Shown here: positions 2,379 to 20,178 of the stretch, piece by piece | How positions within the stretch are numbered: the stretch's first letter is position 1 | Layout of the letters: each line of letters starts with the position of its first letter | Assembly (NCBI GenBank): GCA_028532855.1 | Contig: JAQQAL010000025.1 | Span: 1-64,000, forward strand | Direction: 5' to 3' | Origin: Candidatus Thalassospirochaeta sargassi | GTDB lineage: Bacteria > Spirochaetota > Spirochaetia > UBA9216 | Length of the DNA stretch: 64,000 bases | Notes under the pieces: model-generated | Database searches by the model: none | The model's input: only the letters and a program-made list of their open reading frames with translations | What the model was told of the DNA's origin: nothing | Position numbers and translations under genes: made by a program

Positions 2379-4085
2379 ATGGCTAGAACAAAGGATATCC
2401 CGAATCCGTGGATTAATCTTGAACCCTGGCGGGGCGATGTATTTGAGGGAGAATTCCCGACCCTGCCTGAACTTTTCGAAATTTCAGAAAAACGATATCC
2501 GGATCGCAGATGTTTCACCTGCTATGATCCGACTGAAATGCAATTTACCTATACCGAAGCCTGGAAAAAAATAAACCAGGTTGCTAATTACCTGTTGAAT
2601 ATAGGACTCAGCAAAGGTGAACATGTCGGCCTCACCGGCAAGAATTCGCCCGAATGGGCTATTTCCTATCTTGCAATACTTACAGCGGGTGGCGTTGTCG
2701 TTCCTGTTGATTATTCTCTGAAGACTGATGATGTCTCACGCCTGCTGGAATTTGCGGACATAAATATCCTGTTTGTCGATTCTGAGAAATTTGATGATTT
2801 GAAGCCTTCAGCGCATAAAGGGAAACTGAAAAAGATTTCACTTTCTCCAGATAAAACCGATTACGTTCTTGATATTAATTTTTCTCAGACTATTGAACAT
2901 GAAAAGGCTGGCGAAGACGATACCGCTGCAATTCTTTTTACTTCGGGAACCACCGGTGAACCGAAGGGCGCAATGCTGAGTCACAAAAACTTTGTGTCCG
3001 ATTGTTTTATGTTTCAGGGAAATATGAACATATATCATACTGATGTTTTCTACGCTCTGCTGCCTATCCACCATTCCTATACAATGCTTGCAGTCTTTAT
3101 TGAGGCTTTTTCAGTTGGTGCTGAACTAGTCTTTGCAAAGAAGGTAGTTGTACAGCAGATATTTAAAGATCTGAAGAAGGCCAAGGTTACGATGTTTCTC
3201 GGCATACCAATGTTATTTAACAAGATTATTAAGGGTTTGATGAATGGCATCAGAGAAAAGGGGATAGTAGTCTACGGTCTTATCAGGTTTATGATGGGTT
3301 TCAGCGGTCTGGTTAAAAAGATTTTCGGGGTAAACATCGGTAAATCACTGTTCGGTGGAATCCTTTCAAAGGTTTCTCTTGATACTAACCGGATATGTAT
3401 ATGCGGAGGCGGCCCTCTGCCGGCTGAAACCTTCAAATATTTTAACCAGATGGGGATAGATTTTGTCGTCGGTTACGGTCTGACGGAAGCAGCTCCGGGG
3501 CTCACCCTGAACCCGATTTACGCATACAGGGAAAGCTCAATCGGTAAAATTATCCCGCTAGTCGAGATGAAGGTGCTTGATCCTGATTCTGACGGAACCG
3601 GAGAGCTTATTGCCAGGGGGCCCAATATCATGAAGGGTTACTACAAAAATGAGCAGGCCAGTAAAGAGGCTTTTACCGAAGACGGCTGGCTCTTAACCGG
3701 AGATTCAGGTTATATCGACGATGAAAACTATGTGTATCTTACAGGCAGAAAGAAGAATATGATCGTCACCGAAGGCGGGAAGAATGTTTTTCCTGAAGAG
3801 ATTGAGGATCACTTTCAGCTTTTTGATGAAATTGAACAGATCCTTGTTCGCGGTTATGTACAGGATGAAAAGATGCAGACCGAGGGGATTGAGGCTGTTA
3901 TCGTACCCTCGGAAGATTTCGCAAAGAATAATACTGATGAAGATATAAAAACCCGGTTAGACCAGATTATAGATGAAGTTAACCGTGAAATGCTTCCTTA
4001 TAAGCGAATATCCAGGATATCGGTAAGGAAGGAGGAGATGGAGATGTCTTCCACAAAAAAAATAAAGAGGTTTAAGGTCGAATAA
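2379..4085 (+). CDS. AMP-forming acyl-CoA ligase (long-chain type)
   Basis: A 568-residue ANL-superfamily adenylating enzyme that should convert a fatty acid, ATP and CoA to acyl-CoA via acyl-AMP. The phosphate-binding loop TSGTTGEPKG is at residues 188-197, the GYGLTEAAPG motif near 365, the hinge and TGD motif near 441, and the LTGRKKN segment near 456. The C-terminal catalytic lysine region (SSTKKIKRFK) closes the protein. No membrane segment is present. GGAG precedes the ATG. The MBL hydrolase just upstream may act on related thioesters, which is inferred from position only. The stop overlaps the next start (TAATG). Confidence 0.88.
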   Translation: MARTKDIPNPWINLEPWRGDVFEGEFPTLPELFEISEKRYPDRRCFTCYDPTEMQFTYTEAWKKINQVANYLLNIGLSKGEHVGLTGKNSPEWAISYLAILTAGGVVVPVDYSLKTDDVSRLLEFADINILFVDSEKFDDLKPSAHKGKLKKISLSPDKTDYVLDINFSQTIEHEKAGEDDTAAILFTSGTTGEPKGAMLSHKNFVSDCFMFQGNMNIYHTDVFYALLPIHHSYTMLAVFIEAFSVGAELVFAKKVVVQQIFKDLKKAKVTMFLGIPMLFNKIIKGLMNGIREKGIVVYGLIRFMMGFSGLVKKIFGVNIGKSLFGGILSKVSLDTNRICICGGGPLPAETFKYFNQMGIDFVVGYGLTEAAPGLTLNPIYAYRESSIGKIIPLVEMKVLDPDSDGTGELIARGPNIMKGYYKNEQASKEAFTEDGWLLTGDSGYIDDENYVYLTGRKKNMIVTEGGKNVFPEEIEDHFQLFDEIEQILVRGYVQDEKMQTEGIEAVIVPSEDFAKNNTDEDIKTRLDQIIDEVNREMLPYKRISRISVRKEEMEMSSTKKIKRFKVE

Positions 4086-5350
4086 TGAGCAAGATACTCC
4101 GGCTGATTTTTATTCCGTTGCTTGTATTCCCGGCATTTGCTGTAACCGCAGAGGCAGTGTACATCGAGGACACGGGGTTTGTGCTTGAACCTCCCGTGGG
4201 TTGGACGGTGCTTGATGTTACCGACAGCCGATGGACGTTTCAGGATTTCACCGGAGAGGCTTTCATGCAGATAAAAATATGGCCCGGAGACAGCTGGGAT
4301 TCGGGACAGGCCGTTTTTGACGGAGTTACCGGGGAACTTGCCGCGAAGGCAGAGGGTGAGCAATACGATCTATACGGCCGTGATGCAGTATTCGGTATCC
4401 TGGACTTCGCTTCAGGCGGCTATGAATATTCCGGGTACGGGCTGTTTACAGACGGCGAAGATTTCGACATGGCAATTCTGTCCTTTGCATCGGCTGAGGC
4501 TCTCCCGCTGTTGAACGACTATGTTCTCTCAGCCCTCGATTCCTTCGCCTTTGCGCCAGGTCTGATGCTGAACCCCGGACCTGTAAGCAGTTATTATCTG
4601 CAATCATATACTGCTTCACAGCGTATTCCCGCCTCGACAGTTTTCGAGGGTGAAGCTGTGGAATGGCAGGTTGACGGACGGGCTGTTGAGGCATCACAGC
4701 TTGTGATTGAACGTGAAGCGGCAATACTTGGCGATTTTAAGCCCGATACCGAAGAGGGGATAGAGGCCTGGAAGCGATACTATCGCCTGATCTACCGTGA
4801 TAACTACTCTAGGCTCGATTATCCCGCCGCCCTTCTGAAGGAGCGGCTTCTTCAAACTGAAGAGCTTGATGATACTGATGAATCAGGTTCTGACACTGAG
4901 GATTCATCCGGCTCCTGGTTCAGTTCAGGATCAGAAAAACGAAGACAGTCATTACGCAGTTCGGCATCGAAGCTTTCGCTTGACGCACCGCAGCGGCTGT
5001 TAAGCTGGGTCCAGGGCTTCAACTACCGGCGAACCGGCGGCTCCGACCTGATAAGCCCGCTGGCCGCCGCGGCTTTCGGTGACGGCGACTGCGACAGTCG
5101 TTCACTGCTTTACATTATCCTTCTAAACCATTATGGTGTTGATTCTGCTTTGATGGTCTCAGCAGTTTACAGCCATGCAATGGCCGCCGTCGATACCGAG
5201 GGGCCCGGAGCAAGAATAAACATCGACGGCAGAATGCTGCTTGTCGCCGAAACAACCGATGATGTTGCAATTGGAATGATAGCGTCCGATATGGCAGATC
5301 CGGCAAAGTGGACAGTAATATCGTTAATGGAGAAAGAACCATGGAATTAA
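4085..5350 (+). CDS. exported transglutaminase-like protein
   Basis: A 421-residue protein with a Sec-type signal peptide (about residues 1-23, ending TAEA). The N-terminal half resembles a small beta-rich domain of unknown role. An Asp/Ser-rich linker follows near residues 258-285. The C-terminal domain carries a transglutaminase-like triad: Cys336 in GDGDCDSRS, His364 in YSHAMAAV and Asp381 in NIDGRM, with normal spacing. It is probably periplasmic or surface-associated and could be a cysteine protease or transamidase; the substrate is unknown. It overlaps the acyl-CoA ligase by one base and the YhbY gene by ten. Confidence 0.6.
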   Translation: MSKILRLIFIPLLVFPAFAVTAEAVYIEDTGFVLEPPVGWTVLDVTDSRWTFQDFTGEAFMQIKIWPGDSWDSGQAVFDGVTGELAAKAEGEQYDLYGRDAVFGILDFASGGYEYSGYGLFTDGEDFDMAILSFASAEALPLLNDYVLSALDSFAFAPGLMLNPGPVSSYYLQSYTASQRIPASTVFEGEAVEWQVDGRAVEASQLVIEREAAILGDFKPDTEEGIEAWKRYYRLIYRDNYSRLDYPAALLKERLLQTEELDDTDESGSDTEDSSGSWFSSGSEKRRQSLRSSASKLSLDAPQRLLSWVQGFNYRRTGGSDLISPLAAAAFGDGDCDSRSLLYIILLNHYGVDSALMVSAVYSHAMAAVDTEGPGARINIDGRMLLVAETTDDVAIGMIASDMADPAKWTVISLMEKEPWN

Positions 5351-5649
5351 AGGGTTTTCAGAGAAGTTATCTCGCAAAACTTGCACATAATATCAAACCT
5401 TCAGTAATGCTGGGCGCAAAAGGGCTTACAGAGGCTCTTGTTAATCAGACTGATGAAATGCTTGAAAACAATGAGCTTATAAAAGTGAGATTTGTTGATT
5501 ATAAAAACAGTCGTGACATCCTTTCAAGGCAGCTTGCAGAAGCCACGGATGCAGAGCTTATCAGAGTTATAGGTAATATTGCCATCCTGTTCAGACAGGC
5601 AAGGATTCCTGAGAACAGGCATATCGAACTTCCTGCCCGAAAAAGCTGA
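5341..5649 (+). CDS. yhbY: YhbY/CRM-domain RNA-binding protein
   Basis: A 102-residue single CRM (CRS1-YhbY) domain. It begins LKGFQRSYLAKLAHNIKP and contains the typical GLTEALV and NELIKVRF segments. The family binds pre-50S ribosomal particles. The ATG at 5341 is preferred over an upstream in-frame codon at 5308 because GGAG lies 8 bases before it and family members begin here. It overlaps the preceding reading frame by 10 bases and closes the operon that starts with the HAD phosphatase. Confidence 0.88.
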   Translation: MELKGFQRSYLAKLAHNIKPSVMLGAKGLTEALVNQTDEMLENNELIKVRFVDYKNSRDILSRQLAEATDAELIRVIGNIAILFRQARIPENRHIELPARKS

Positions 5650-5670
5650 TAAAATAACAAAAAATTAGAA

Positions 5671-5724
5671 AATTCTCCTTCATGCTGATATAATTTAAAA
5701 TATCAGTTTCGAGTAAGGAGAATT
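5671..5724 (+). promoter_or_regulatory. nested inverted repeat covering promoter and SD of the lipoprotein gene
   Basis: A perfect 10-bp inverted repeat (AATTCTCCTT at 5671-5680, AAGGAGAATT at 5715-5724) encloses a second perfect 7-bp repeat (CTGATAT at 5685-5691, ATATCAG at 5700-5706). The outer right arm is the Shine-Dalgarno sequence of the ATG at 5727. A TATAAT lies at 5689-5694 with only a weak -35. If transcription comes from upstream, the RNA folds and hides the SD. If it starts near 5701, the repeat can act only as DNA. Confidence 0.6.
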
Positions 5725-5726
5725 AA

Positions 5727-6635
5727 ATGAGTTTAAAAAAGATGAGGCTGTTATTGATAATAACAGCGCTGGTTCTTATCCTTGTCGGATGTGAAGCTAT
5801 CAACTCTACCTTTGACGAATTATTCCTTTCTACAACCGAAGTTGAAGCAGGCGGACTTGACAATTATGACACCGGTGGAAATGCTGCTGATTCAGATGCG
5901 GATGTCGATCAGGGGATGGAGCTTGCCTTTGATGTCATTGGCGAGAGTCTGGAAATGAGAAGCATTCTTGGTGAGGATACCGACGCTGTAATCGAGGTGC
6001 TCAGAATTGCTGCGCCGGATGTTGCATCCATTGTATCGCCTGAAGAGCCAGTTTCACGGGCTGCAGCAGTGAGTGCAAGTGCTTCGGTAACTGACGAGCA
6101 GATTTCCGATGGTGATGTAACTATTGATATTGTGGAAGCCAGTGTTTCCGCTTCAATGGAAGTGGATGACCTTGATGAACCAACAAAGGCTGATGCAGAG
6201 TTTGAGGCTAAGCTGGAGATAGGTATAACCGGAATGGCCGGGGAATACTGGGACGCGAGCCTTGGAGATTTCGGAGAATATGTAGCCTATACGGTTGAAG
6301 ATTTTCAGCTGAATGTAAACGGCAACGGCAACGGAACCATGACTTTTGGAGAACTGGGCTATGAAGATCCGGAACAGATTGATTATTACACGGGACTTGC
6401 TGTTTCGCTCGGTTTCTCAATTTCTGCTCCCGACTGTTCGGGAAAATACATCGCCACATTCAAGTATGTCAACAATGCGGTTATAACAGTTCCGGATGAT
6501 CCCGACGCAGAAATGCCTGATTTCACCGGAGGGCAGACGCTCGAAATTACAGTCTATGTCTATGACAACAGCGGCGCAAGGATCTATGAAAGGGCATACA
6601 CAGAAAGTGAACTCTTTTCAAACGAACCAAGCTGA
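5727..6635 (+). CDS. putative lipoprotein, acidic, unknown function
   Basis: A 302-residue exported protein. Residues 1-21 form a lipoprotein signal peptide with lipobox LVGC and lipidated Cys22. The mature part is strongly acidic and rich in Ala, Val, Ser and Asp, with probable beta strands. I recognise no domain and no paralogue in the window. AAGGAG lies 6 bases before the ATG and sits in one arm of an inverted repeat (5671-5724), suggesting control of translation or transcription. A rho-independent terminator follows at 6663-6694, so the gene may be monocistronic. Confidence 0.75.
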   Translation: MSLKKMRLLLIITALVLILVGCEAINSTFDELFLSTTEVEAGGLDNYDTGGNAADSDADVDQGMELAFDVIGESLEMRSILGEDTDAVIEVLRIAAPDVASIVSPEEPVSRAAAVSASASVTDEQISDGDVTIDIVEASVSASMEVDDLDEPTKADAEFEAKLEIGITGMAGEYWDASLGDFGEYVAYTVEDFQLNVNGNGNGTMTFGELGYEDPEQIDYYTGLAVSLGFSISAPDCSGKYIATFKYVNNAVITVPDDPDAEMPDFTGGQTLEITVYVYDNSGARIYERAYTESELFSNEPS

Positions 6636-6662
6636 GCGTTTTATTAGAAAGTGAATTATTAA

Positions 6663-6694
6663 GGATGTTCTCTGAATGAGGACATCCATTTTTT
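6663..6694 (+). terminator. rho-independent terminator after the lipoprotein
   Basis: A 10-bp stem (GGATGTTCTC with GAGGACATCC, one G-U pair), a five-base loop and six Ts at 6689-6694. The T tract overlaps the stop codon of the convergent dCMP deaminase gene. Confidence 0.85.
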
Positions 6695-7184
6695 ACTGCT
6701 CCGCGTACTTTAGGATCTCTTCATCAACATATTCAAGGCTGATTCCAGCCTCTGCAAACATCTTTTCTGATTCCGCCCCTGCATGATATTTTTTTTCGCA
6801 GACAACCCTTGTAATTCCACAGTTTATTATGAGCATTGCACAGGTTCTGCATGGAGTCATTCTGCAATAGAGGGTTGCTCCGTCGATGCTTATACCGCGC
6901 CTCGCAGCCTGACAAATAGCATTTTGTTCTGCATGAACCGTTCGAACACAGTGCTGTGTTACCGAGCCGTCTTCATGCAGCATTTTTTTCATCTGATGTC
7001 CGACCTCGTCGCAATGGGGCAGCCCCCTCGGTGAGCCAACATAGCCTGTGACAAGGATCTGTCTGTCTTTTGCGATAACGCATCCGCTGCGGCCGCGGTC
7101 GCAGGTTGCTCTTTTTGAAATGGAGTTTGACACCTCCATGAAGTATTCGTCCCAGCTGGGTCTAATGTATTTTTCTTCCGCCAT
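6693..7184 (-). CDS. deoxycytidylate deaminase (ComEB-like)
   Basis: A 163-residue zinc-dependent cytidine/deoxycytidylate deaminase that should convert dCMP to dUMP for thymidylate synthesis. The zinc site is complete: HAE at residues 84-86 and PCRTC with Cys112 and Cys115. The N-terminal SWDEYF and GCVIAKD segments match the ComEB/dCMP deaminase family. The ATG at 7184 fits family starts; a TTG 36 bases upstream lies inside the promoter. No Shine-Dalgarno is visible, and the -10 TATAAT ends six bases before the ATG, so the mRNA is probably leaderless. Confidence 0.88.
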   Translation of the reverse strand: MAEEKYIRPSWDEYFMEVSNSISKRATCDRGRSGCVIAKDRQILVTGYVGSPRGLPHCDEVGHQMKKMLHEDGSVTQHCVRTVHAEQNAICQAARRGISIDGATLYCRMTPCRTCAMLIINCGITRVVCEKKYHAGAESEKMFAEAGISLEYVDEEILKYAEQ

Positions 7185-7190
7185 GTGACG

Positions 7191-7220
7191 ATTATAACAC
7201 TGACCCGGATAATAAAACAA
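7191..7220 (-). promoter_or_regulatory. promoter of the dCMP deaminase gene, probably leaderless
   Basis: On the minus strand TTGTTT (7215-7220), an 18-base spacer and a perfect TATAAT (7191-7196). The expected start of transcription coincides with the ATG at 7184. Confidence 0.7.
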
Positions 7221-7221
7221 C

Positions 7222-7250
7222 TTGAAAACCGGGGTTAAATGGGTTAGAAT
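7222..7250 (+). promoter_or_regulatory. promoter of the second lipoprotein gene
   Basis: TTGAAA (7222-7227), a 17-base spacer and TAGAAT (7245-7250). Its -35 box is one base from the -35 box of the divergent deaminase promoter. Confidence 0.7.
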
Positions 7251-7269
7251 TTTTTATCGAGGAGCGAAA

Positions 7270-7884
7270 ATGAGAAGACTTGTTTTTATGCTGACGCCTG
7301 CAATGTTTTTATTGTTAATTTCGTGCAGCTGGTTTCAGAAAACATACTACACAGACTTTGATTCGGATGATGGAAAATTTTCGTTTAACGAAGCTGACAG
7401 CGAAACTTTTGACACTGGAGAGATTGCCGACGGATCGCTTCACCTTAAGTCAACAGTAAATGACGAATACGGTTCTGGTGCACAGGCTGTATTCTCTGAA
7501 GAAATCCCTGTGAAATCTTCTGTCTCGTTCACAGTAACCTTCGGCAGTCAGTTTAACACCCAGCATCCGCGCGGCCATTTTAATTTTTTCCAGACAGATC
7601 CGGACAGCAGAATGGTTTTTATGGCCGGTCCCAGTACCTTATCTTATTTTGTATCTGTTGATGGAGAGACTGAATCCTATGATATAAAGGATATGGTTTT
7701 CAATGAAGATACAGCATATGAATTTGAGTTCAAGTTCAAACCTATGGCAATATACATCTATGTTGATGAGTCATTTGTTAATGTCATTGATTATCCTGAA
7801 GGGCTGCCGCTAAGCGGTGATTTCATTTTTGAATGCCACAACGAATACTGGGTGGATAACTTCGGGTACGAAATTCTTGAGTAG
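7270..7884 (+). CDS. putative lipoprotein, unknown function
   Basis: A 204-residue exported protein with a lipoprotein signal peptide (hydrophobic residues 4-18, LLIS before Cys19). The mature chain is rich in aromatic and acidic residues with an alternating pattern (FDSDDGKFSF, YTDFD, YEFEFKFKP) that suggests a beta-sandwich; I do not recognise the family. The ATG at 7270 is chosen because GAGGAG is at 7259-7264 and the signal peptide begins there; a TTG at 7222 lies in the promoter. Terminators flank the gene, so it is probably transcribed alone. Confidence 0.75.
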   Translation: MRRLVFMLTPAMFLLLISCSWFQKTYYTDFDSDDGKFSFNEADSETFDTGEIADGSLHLKSTVNDEYGSGAQAVFSEEIPVKSSVSFTVTFGSQFNTQHPRGHFNFFQTDPDSRMVFMAGPSTLSYFVSVDGETESYDIKDMVFNEDTAYEFEFKFKPMAIYIYVDESFVNVIDYPEGLPLSGDFIFECHNEYWVDNFGYEILE

Positions 7885-18951: not shown

Positions 18952-20178
18952 ATGGAAAAACTTCTTGTAATTAATTGCGGCAGCTCATCTCTGAAATACG
19001 AGGTTTATGCGATGCCGAACAAAACTAGTCTTGGTAAGGGACTTGTGGAACGTATCGGCTCTCCGACGGGAATTATTACTCAAAAGTCCGATAAGGGTGT
19101 CATAGAATTGAATGAGCCTCTACCAGATCATGATGCGGCAATGGTTCTTGTCAAAAAAGCCTTAACCGATCCTGACAAAGGGATATTAAAAGCAATTGAT
19201 GAAATCTCAGGTGTAGGTCATCGAACGGTGCACGGAGGTGAGGATTATTCAACATCCGTAATTATCGATGAAGATGTAATTGAAGCTATAAAGCGGAATA
19301 CGGATCTTGCACCATTGCATAATCCTGCAAACCTTACCGGTATAAAAGCTGCGATGGAAATGTTGCCGGGGGTTCCGCAGGTAGCGGTCTTCGATACAGC
19401 TTTTCACCAGACGCTTGCCCCGTCCTCATATCTTTATGGACTGCCCAGGGAACTGTATACAAAACATAAGATCAGACGTTATGGTTTTCACGGAACCAGC
19501 CATCGTTATGTCTCAAAAGAAGCAGTAAAACTTATGAAGCGGGATGTTGAAAATACTAATGTAATTTCATGTCATCTTGGCAACGGAGCATCTATAACTG
19601 CTATCAGGCAGGGCAAATCGGTGGAAACTTCAATGGGTTTTACTCCTCTTGAAGGTCTGGTTATGGGAACGCGCAGCGGTGATCTGGATCCTGCCATCCT
19701 CCTGTTTCTTCTTGAAAAAGGATATTCAGCTGAAGATATAAACAAGATGATAAACAAGGAAGGCGGATTGCTGGGCTTGTCGGGTGTTTCAAATGATATG
19801 AGAGATATACATCTCGCGGCAGATAAGGGTAATCAGGATGCAATTGAAGCACTTGAGGTGTTCGCTCACAAGATTAGACAGTATATAGGTGCGTACTCAG
19901 CTAACATGGTTAAAGTCGATGCACTCATTTTTACCGGTGGTATTGGCGAGAATGATATCAGAATGCGGGAAATGATCTGCCACCGGCTGGAAAATATCGG
20001 CATTGTAATGGACTATGATAGGAACAAAGCAAATGGTTCAAAGCCCGGAATTGTTTCTAAGGATTATTCACCTGTAACCATAATAGTAATGCCGACGAAC
20101 GAAGAATTGCAGATTGCAACTGATACTTATGAGTTGATTAATGAAAAATATAAAAGTTGGGTTCTTCTTAAGGAATAG
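18952..20178 (+). CDS. ackA: acetate kinase, standard length
   Basis: A 408-residue acetate kinase of normal length. Signatures: VINCGSSSLKYE, GHRTVHGGEDY, RRYGFHGTSHRY, HLGNGASITA, GTRSGDLDPAI and TGGIGENDIR. It is a diverged paralogue of the gene at 15960-17336 and lacks that gene's cysteine-rich tail. GGAG precedes the ATG. No phosphotransacetylase is in the window, so the partner enzyme must be elsewhere. A strong terminator follows at 20236-20272. Confidence 0.94.
   Translation: MEKLLVINCGSSSLKYEVYAMPNKTSLGKGLVERIGSPTGIITQKSDKGVIELNEPLPDHDAAMVLVKKALTDPDKGILKAIDEISGVGHRTVHGGEDYSTSVIIDEDVIEAIKRNTDLAPLHNPANLTGIKAAMEMLPGVPQVAVFDTAFHQTLAPSSYLYGLPRELYTKHKIRRYGFHGTSHRYVSKEAVKLMKRDVENTNVISCHLGNGASITAIRQGKSVETSMGFTPLEGLVMGTRSGDLDPAILLFLLEKGYSAEDINKMINKEGGLLGLSGVSNDMRDIHLAADKGNQDAIEALEVFAHKIRQYIGAYSANMVKVDALIFTGGIGENDIRMREMICHRLENIGIVMDYDRNKANGSKPGIVSKDYSPVTIIVMPTNEELQIATDTYELINEKYKSWVLLKE

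Follow-up and report, generated by a model that had tools for sequence, protein, structure and literature searches.

A nested inverted repeat around the SD of a spirochaete lipoprotein gene and its possible role in silencing read-through RNA

Results

The lipoprotein gene and its leader

The window, by which we mean the whole 64-kb stretch of DNA that was analysed, is a piece of contig C25 from a genome of 3.84 Mb. On the plus strand a tightly packed run of genes starts near position 89 and ends at 5649 with yhbY as its last member, and an AT-rich gap of 77 nt separates yhbY from a gene for a lipoprotein, with which a deaminase-like frame is convergent (Table 1). No Pfam family matched the lipoprotein above the cut-off, and its predicted structure was poor (mean pLDDT 54.6). 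The scan for terminators called no terminator-like site on the plus strand between yhbY and the lipoprotein gene (5649–5727), and the yhbY run would be the source of any read-through RNA that enters the lipoprotein gene. The top score in a promoter scan of 4000–7600 belonged to an antisense promoter-like sequence inside yhbY (TTGAAA-18-TATAAT, 5498–5527, minus strand, 11/12 matches).

Table 1. Positions of genes and leader elements in the window
Feature	Position	Strand	Basis
yhbY (CRS1/YhbY domain)	5341–5649	+	CRS1_YhbY, E 6.4e-23
-35-like hexamer TAGAAA	5666–5671	+	
Left outer arm AATTCTCCTT (anti-SD)	5671–5680	+	inverted-repeat search
Left inner arm CTGATAT	5685–5691	+	
-10-like hexamer TATAAT	5689–5694	+	
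Right inner arm ATATCAG	5700–5706	+	
Right outer arm AAGGAGAATT, includes SD AAGGAG	5715–5724	+	inverted-repeat search
Lipoprotein gene, 302 aa	5727–6635	+	signal peptide, LVGC lipobox (by eye)
Perfect 9-bp hairpin in signal-peptide codons, just 3' of the start	5747–5767	+	
Coding stretch TCCTTG, pairs with 5714–5719 and partly re-hides the SD in short RNA	5779–5784	+	folded structure of 5701–5790
Deaminase-like frame, convergent with the lipoprotein gene	6693–7220	-	named by eye from sequence, not by family search

The original prediction placed the SD of the lipoprotein gene in the outer stem of a nested inverted repeat, and this description proved exact. The outer arms, AATTCTCCTT and AAGGAGAATT, are complementary at 10 of 10 positions with a spacing of 34 nt, the inner arms are complementary at 7 of 7 with a spacing of 8 nt, and the centres of the two repeats lie 2 bp apart. 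The SD AAGGAG occupies 5715–5720 in the right outer arm, where it faces CUCCUU in a perfect Watson-Crick match, and is followed by a six-base spacer and the ATG at 5727–5729; the start AUG is outside the outer helix. The hairpin in the signal-peptide codons was, by eye, not found in the orthologue described below. When the leader was searched for as a repeat element, its single match in the genome was itself, and the reading of the leader as a repeat element was therefore dropped.

A promoter-like sequence, TAGAAA-17-TATAAT, spans 5666–5694, matches the consensus at 10 of 12 positions and has a TG-extended -10 element, which overlaps the left inner arm. Of the 762 genes sampled from the same genome, 24 had a site of this score or better within the preceding 120 nt; when the bases of the gap were shuffled 5000 times, 21 of the shuffles produced one. 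Transcription from this site would be expected to start at about 5700–5702, between the outer arms, giving a leader of about 26 nt, and because the left outer arm is located between the -35 and -10 hexamers, that arm would be absent from the RNA. The arrangement follows an IS10-like logic in that the -10 hexamer lies between 5671–5680 and 5715–5724, the promoter being a consensus match with a predicted start. The 11-mer that contains the -10 hexamer, GCTGATATAAT (5684–5694), is nearly identical to a second 11-mer, GCTGATAAAAT (5645–5655), 39 bp away.

The SD is predicted to be buried in read-through RNA

Folding of the RNA from 5671 to 5727 produced both stems at -18.5 kcal/mol, compared with a mean of -6.0 kcal/mol for shuffled sequences, none of which (0/200) was equally stable; for the 89-nt leader (5641–5729), 2 of 4000 shuffles were equally stable. 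The computed cost of opening the SD was 9.0–10.3 kcal/mol when the RNA began at 5600 or 5650, and 1.2–1.7 kcal/mol when it began at 5695–5703 and ended at 5780 or before. The value of 9.3 kcal/mol obtained for the lipoprotein gene was the third highest among 325 sampled genes, the median of which was 1.9. By computation, the SD would be paired in read-through RNA, and would stay unpaired in RNA that starts at the predicted promoter for as long as that RNA lacks the downstream codons. Once codons ~18–21 have been transcribed, the cost for the short RNA climbs to 3.9–6.3 kcal/mol, as the coding stretch listed in Table 1 can then pair with the SD region. The long RNA acquires its left arm ahead of the SD, and this arm should outcompete the downstream pairing. 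The yhbY reading frame closes at 5649 and leaves 21 nt to the left arm, so ribosomes that terminate there are expected to leave the arm intact. The single-stranded DNA from 5661 to 5735 also folds (-10.2 kcal/mol, 0/200 shuffles equally stable), which follows from the repeats and teaches nothing further.

We tentatively favour the view that the repeat serves as a translational silencer of read-through RNA and so ties expression of the lipoprotein to the gene's own promoter. In the proposed mechanism, most transcription of the gene would come from a sigma-70-type promoter of its own (5666–5694) with a start between the outer arms, and the resulting RNA, with its leader of about 26 nt, would present an open SD. 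RNA entering from the yhbY run would carry both arms and would fold once the right arm has been transcribed, and the 10-bp helix enclosing the inner hairpin would bury the SD, such that the read-through RNA would be hardly translated. The repeats, the promoter-like site, the lack of a called terminator and the computed contrast in SD opening are the parts of this reading that the analysis shows, and use of the promoter, the occurrence of read-through and a lowering of translation by the fold are the parts that are inferred.

It had been predicted that expression would depend on which promoter is used, and choice of promoter does fit the anatomy, because the SD is costly to open in RNA from upstream and cheap to open in RNA from 5695–5703. 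Together with the lack of a called terminator, this anatomy and the computed contrast support such a dependence as plausible, with the qualification that the short RNA partly re-hides its own SD (codons ~18–20).

The further proposal that the structure is an RNA switch or thermometer fared less well. In favour of a thermometer, or of another switch in the main transcript, are the presence of the SD within a helix and the lig lipoprotein genes of Leptospira, which are described as having an SD-hiding stem with an effect of temperature (PMC7821625). In the RNA of 5560–5790, the computed probability that the SD is unpaired stayed at about 0.065–0.07 from 10 to 60 °C and was 0.10 at 70 °C, and the cost of opening dropped smoothly from 12.5 kcal/mol at 10 °C to 3.7 kcal/mol at 70 °C; the computation did not open the helix in the range of 10–70 °C. 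Thermometers of the fourU and ROSE types have bulges, G-U pairs or a U-rich arm opposite the SD. The lipoprotein leader has the unbroken CUCCUU opposite AAGGAG and gave no Rfam match at the gathering score. Because the modelled helix stays shut and the promoter-made RNA, likely the main one, would be without the left arm, a thermometer fits poorly, and we consider this explanation very unlikely. The switch claim, taken as a described riboswitch, likewise found no match, as cmscan of 5000–6700 returned four matches with E values up to 10 and none at the gathering score of any Rfam family, and a riboswitch was dropped as a candidate.

How often such repeats arise by chance

For the background, 762 genes were drawn from 864 kb of this genome, and 566 of them have an SD-like word. 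The gene calls came from a simple script that accepted ORFs of at least 90 aa and chose the start by the SD, and not from an annotation, and some of the starts are surely wrong, a doubtful example being C22:59410, which has a likely terminator directly before it. Genes less than 120 nt from the end of a piece were excluded, as were, from the SD tests, genes without an SD-like word (92/417 in the first sample, 196/762 in both samples). The promoter test kept only genes with a promoter-like site, which were 96/417 in the first sample, 76/345 in the replicate, 102/359 in the genome G003 and 75/372 in the genome G030.

An outer arm of at least 10 bp over the SD was present in one of the 566 genes, the lipoprotein gene itself, which also has the inner repeat; two more genes had an arm of 9. 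When upstream parts were swapped between genes (400 rounds), an arm of at least 10 over the SD appeared in 74 of 226,400 cases, or ~1.1 per 3,500 genes, and the nested form, with an inner arm of at least 7 as well, in 10 of 226,400, or ~0.15 per 3,500 genes, where 3,500 is a round figure for scale and not a count. The outer 10-bp arm alone is thus unremarkable genome-wide and the nested form is uncommon, though the features were picked post hoc.

Repeats that straddle a promoter-like site were in excess in the first sample, which includes the lipoprotein gene, with 10 against 3.8 expected for arms of at least 7 and 28 against 13.9 for arms of at least 6. The excess was not replicated in a further 400 kb of the genome (4 against 3.1 and 13 against 10.9, respectively) and was absent from the G003 sample (4 against 4.4 and 18 against 16.1); the G030 sample had a slight excess (5 against 2.8 and 13 against 10.2). 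In the first sample, strong occlusion of the SD (opening cost of at least 8) was observed for 7/325 genes where 1.4 were expected; the corresponding figures were 3/241 against 2.5 in the replicate, 3/275 against 1.75 in G003 and 8/296 against 3.5 in G030. With these results in the replicate, G003 and G030, we do not propose a general promoter-straddling device, and the idea of one specific to this genome was dropped.

The 8-bp core of the outer repeat, TTCTCCTT-N16-46-AAGGAGAA, was present once each in 12 of 41 genomes, compared with seven control hits in the same set. An open frame of at least 150 aa starts 4–7 nt after the core repeat, on either strand, in 5 of the 12 genomes and in none of the other 7. 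Two of the five frames, the lipoprotein gene and one resembling dprA in G034, start with ATG and three with TTG, including a lipoprotein-like frame in G028 (names given by eye), and some frames adjacent to AAGGAGAA are to be expected because AAGGAGAA is itself an SD.

These frequencies bear on the possibility that the structure has no selected function, in which case the AT-rich gap would hold a promoter and an SD of the usual kind that by chance form a hairpin rarely present in transcripts. Such an explanation is a credible one: it draws on the expectation from leader swapping of about one 10-bp arm over an SD in the 3,500-gene scale, on the control hits for the core and the seven genomes in which no long frame follows it, on the lack of enrichment in the replicate sample, and on the loss of the repeat in the orthologue. 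Against it speak the nested form, for which the expectation over an SD falls well below one on the same scale, and the leader shuffles, of which so few fold equally well.

Several other repeats were noted near an SD or promoter. In the dprA-like gene of G034 (locus L023, minus strand, ~1501–1550), the SD is covered by a nested hairpin composed of the core TTCTCCTT/AAGGAGAA and an inner hairpin AGTCTT/AAGACT. In the genome studied here, moxR (C24:88784, locus L051), one of the promoter-straddling cases of the first sample, has a promoter-like TTGACG-17-TATATT inside a long imperfect inverted repeat, the right arm of which holds the SD AGGAG; in G001, of the same genus, the moxR promoter is also within a repeat, which differs in sequence and leaves the SD outside, and G002 and G003 gave no clear sign of one. 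At C11:211747 of the same genome, a CTCCAG/CTGGAG repeat with TATAAT in its loop covers the SD of a 203-aa gene, the product of which had no Pfam match at E 0.001 and presumably resembles AbiEi-type antitoxins. At the acetate kinase gene (window position 18952), an 8-bp repeat straddles a promoter-like site and its right arm adjoins the SD.

The inner palindrome as a possible operator

The repeat could also be read as DNA, with the palindrome CTGATAT-N8-ATATCAG over the -10 hexamer and start site being bound by a repressor, and the outer arms being either second contacts or due to chance. Operators typically lie over the -10 and start site, and the inner palindrome covers both. In G003, a perfect 17-bp hairpin lies over the SD of a TetR-family gene (C43 near 295353, minus strand; TetR_N, E 1e-14), perhaps as that gene's own operator, so repeats of such a look may be operators. 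With up to two mismatches, the genome has the inner palindrome at 71 places and the reversed pattern at 13, and in a 464-kb sample with up to one mismatch, the 8-nt spacing gave three places (itself included) against 0 or 1 for each other spacing from 2 to 15. Exact copies numbered only one in the genome, with six places having one mismatch and 64 having two. The reversed pattern is moreover a poor control, because the 8-nt spacing was not special at up to two mismatches in the 464-kb sample, where it gave nine inverted occurrences against 12 direct and two everted ones, and other spacings gave 3 to 10. As this was no clear excess of the palindrome at that spacing, an operator family was dropped. 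Further points against an operator are the distance of 2 bp between the two centres, the lipoprotein gene itself, which does not encode a regulator, and the orthologue's lack of the palindrome, and we give this reading a lower probability than silencing or the absence of function.

On the minus strand, the repeat is followed by the T-rich stretch TTCTAATTTTTTG, as it would be if the hairpin were a terminator for transcription in that direction. The terminator scan, in which loops were limited to 3–8, did not call it; the hairpin has a 34-nt interior and an AT-rich stem base, and the closest probable gene on the minus strand has its end at 6693. These properties make a minus-strand terminator the least probable of the functions considered.

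Relatives of the lipoprotein gene

The lipoprotein gene is present in two of the five genomes of the genus, itself included, although absence from a genome of the genus is no proof here because three of the five are 81–96% complete or more than 5% contaminated. A search of 60 genomes gave two hits including itself, and a second one, over 394 genomes that belong to the class and were taken from a larger group, gave six, namely itself, the same-genus genome G004 and four distant relatives. Relatives in genome_contigs numbered one (UBA9216) among the matches listed, and there were none in viral_contigs or plasmids. The G004 gene, with 54% protein identity and the same neighbours, was the sole orthologue found. 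In G001 and G003 the deaminase frame directly follows yhbY and the lipoprotein gene is missing, so that its cassette lies behind a gene run that also occurs on its own, which counts in favour of the silencing reading; the G002 contig ends in yhbY.

Neither the 10-bp outer repeat nor the inner palindrome is present in the leader of the G004 orthologue. The SD of that gene is touched by a different, weak 5-bp hairpin, CCTAT-ATAT-ATAGG, at -5.9 kcal/mol (14/200 shuffles equally stable), which would probably lie in the gene's main RNA. In the stretch searched in G004, each strand had one promoter-like site, weak on the plus strand, where 1.2 were expected for the two strands together. A promoter-like TTGACA-17-CATAAT, with 11/12 matches and a TG, lies 22 nt before the ATG of L015, a distant homologue (29% identity) in another family, and likewise counts in favour of silencing; shuffles of that stretch gave 2.1 sites of at least 9/12 on both strands.

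Retention of the structure in relatives would be supportive of read-through silencing, without defining it, and the structure is absent from G004. The alignment comprised two leaders, which are too diverged to show covariation. Conservation therefore lends the silencing reading no support, and a single compared sequence at 54% identity would be compatible with recent selection.

Discussion

Among the readings considered, silencing of read-through RNA ranks first, closely followed by the absence of any function and then by an operator, and a thermometer is unlikely. We are more doubtful of the wider description, under which the lipoprotein gene would exemplify a chromosomal gene with its promoter inside a hairpin, where promoter choice alone decides translation and the leader itself holds a terminator-free insulator against read-through. 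If it is true, chromosomal genes use a trick of insertion sequences to silence leaked-in transcripts at the level of translation, and same-strand neighbours with no terminator between them need not be co-expressed. The weight of the case is small because it is a single one and support from conservation is lacking; the leader looks like an apparently isolated, unconserved case of a known type of control.

In IS10/Tn10 and IS50/Tn5, a fold-back hides the start region of the transposase in RNA that enters from outside the element. The lipoprotein leader resembles these elements in having the gene's own promoter inside the repeat, with both arms and a hidden SD only in RNA from outside. It differs in that it precedes a single-copy chromosomal lipoprotein gene with no transposase, and in that it matches itself alone in the genome. 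The open literature searched, including passages of PMC5006887 and PMC4265352, yielded no description of the IS10/IS50 read-through silencing.

A leader structure over a ribosome-binding site is also a feature of the ISPpu9 transposase mRNA of Pseudomonas putida, for which PMC8450116 proposes that the structure blocks the site and that a small RNA opens it; such a proposed opener sets ISPpu9 apart from the lipoprotein-gene leader. The spirochaete parallel is provided by ligA and ligB of Leptospira, which are lipoprotein genes with the SD sequestered by a stem-loop in the leader. According to PMC7821625, tests by mutation and compensation support the stem, which also covers the AUG, and expression of the fusion rises with temperature. 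The gene described here shares with them a spirochaete lipoprotein product and an SD in a stem-loop; unlike in ligA and ligB as described there, its AUG is outside the helix, the computed temperatures leave that helix unmelted, and its likely main RNA would be made without one of the arms.
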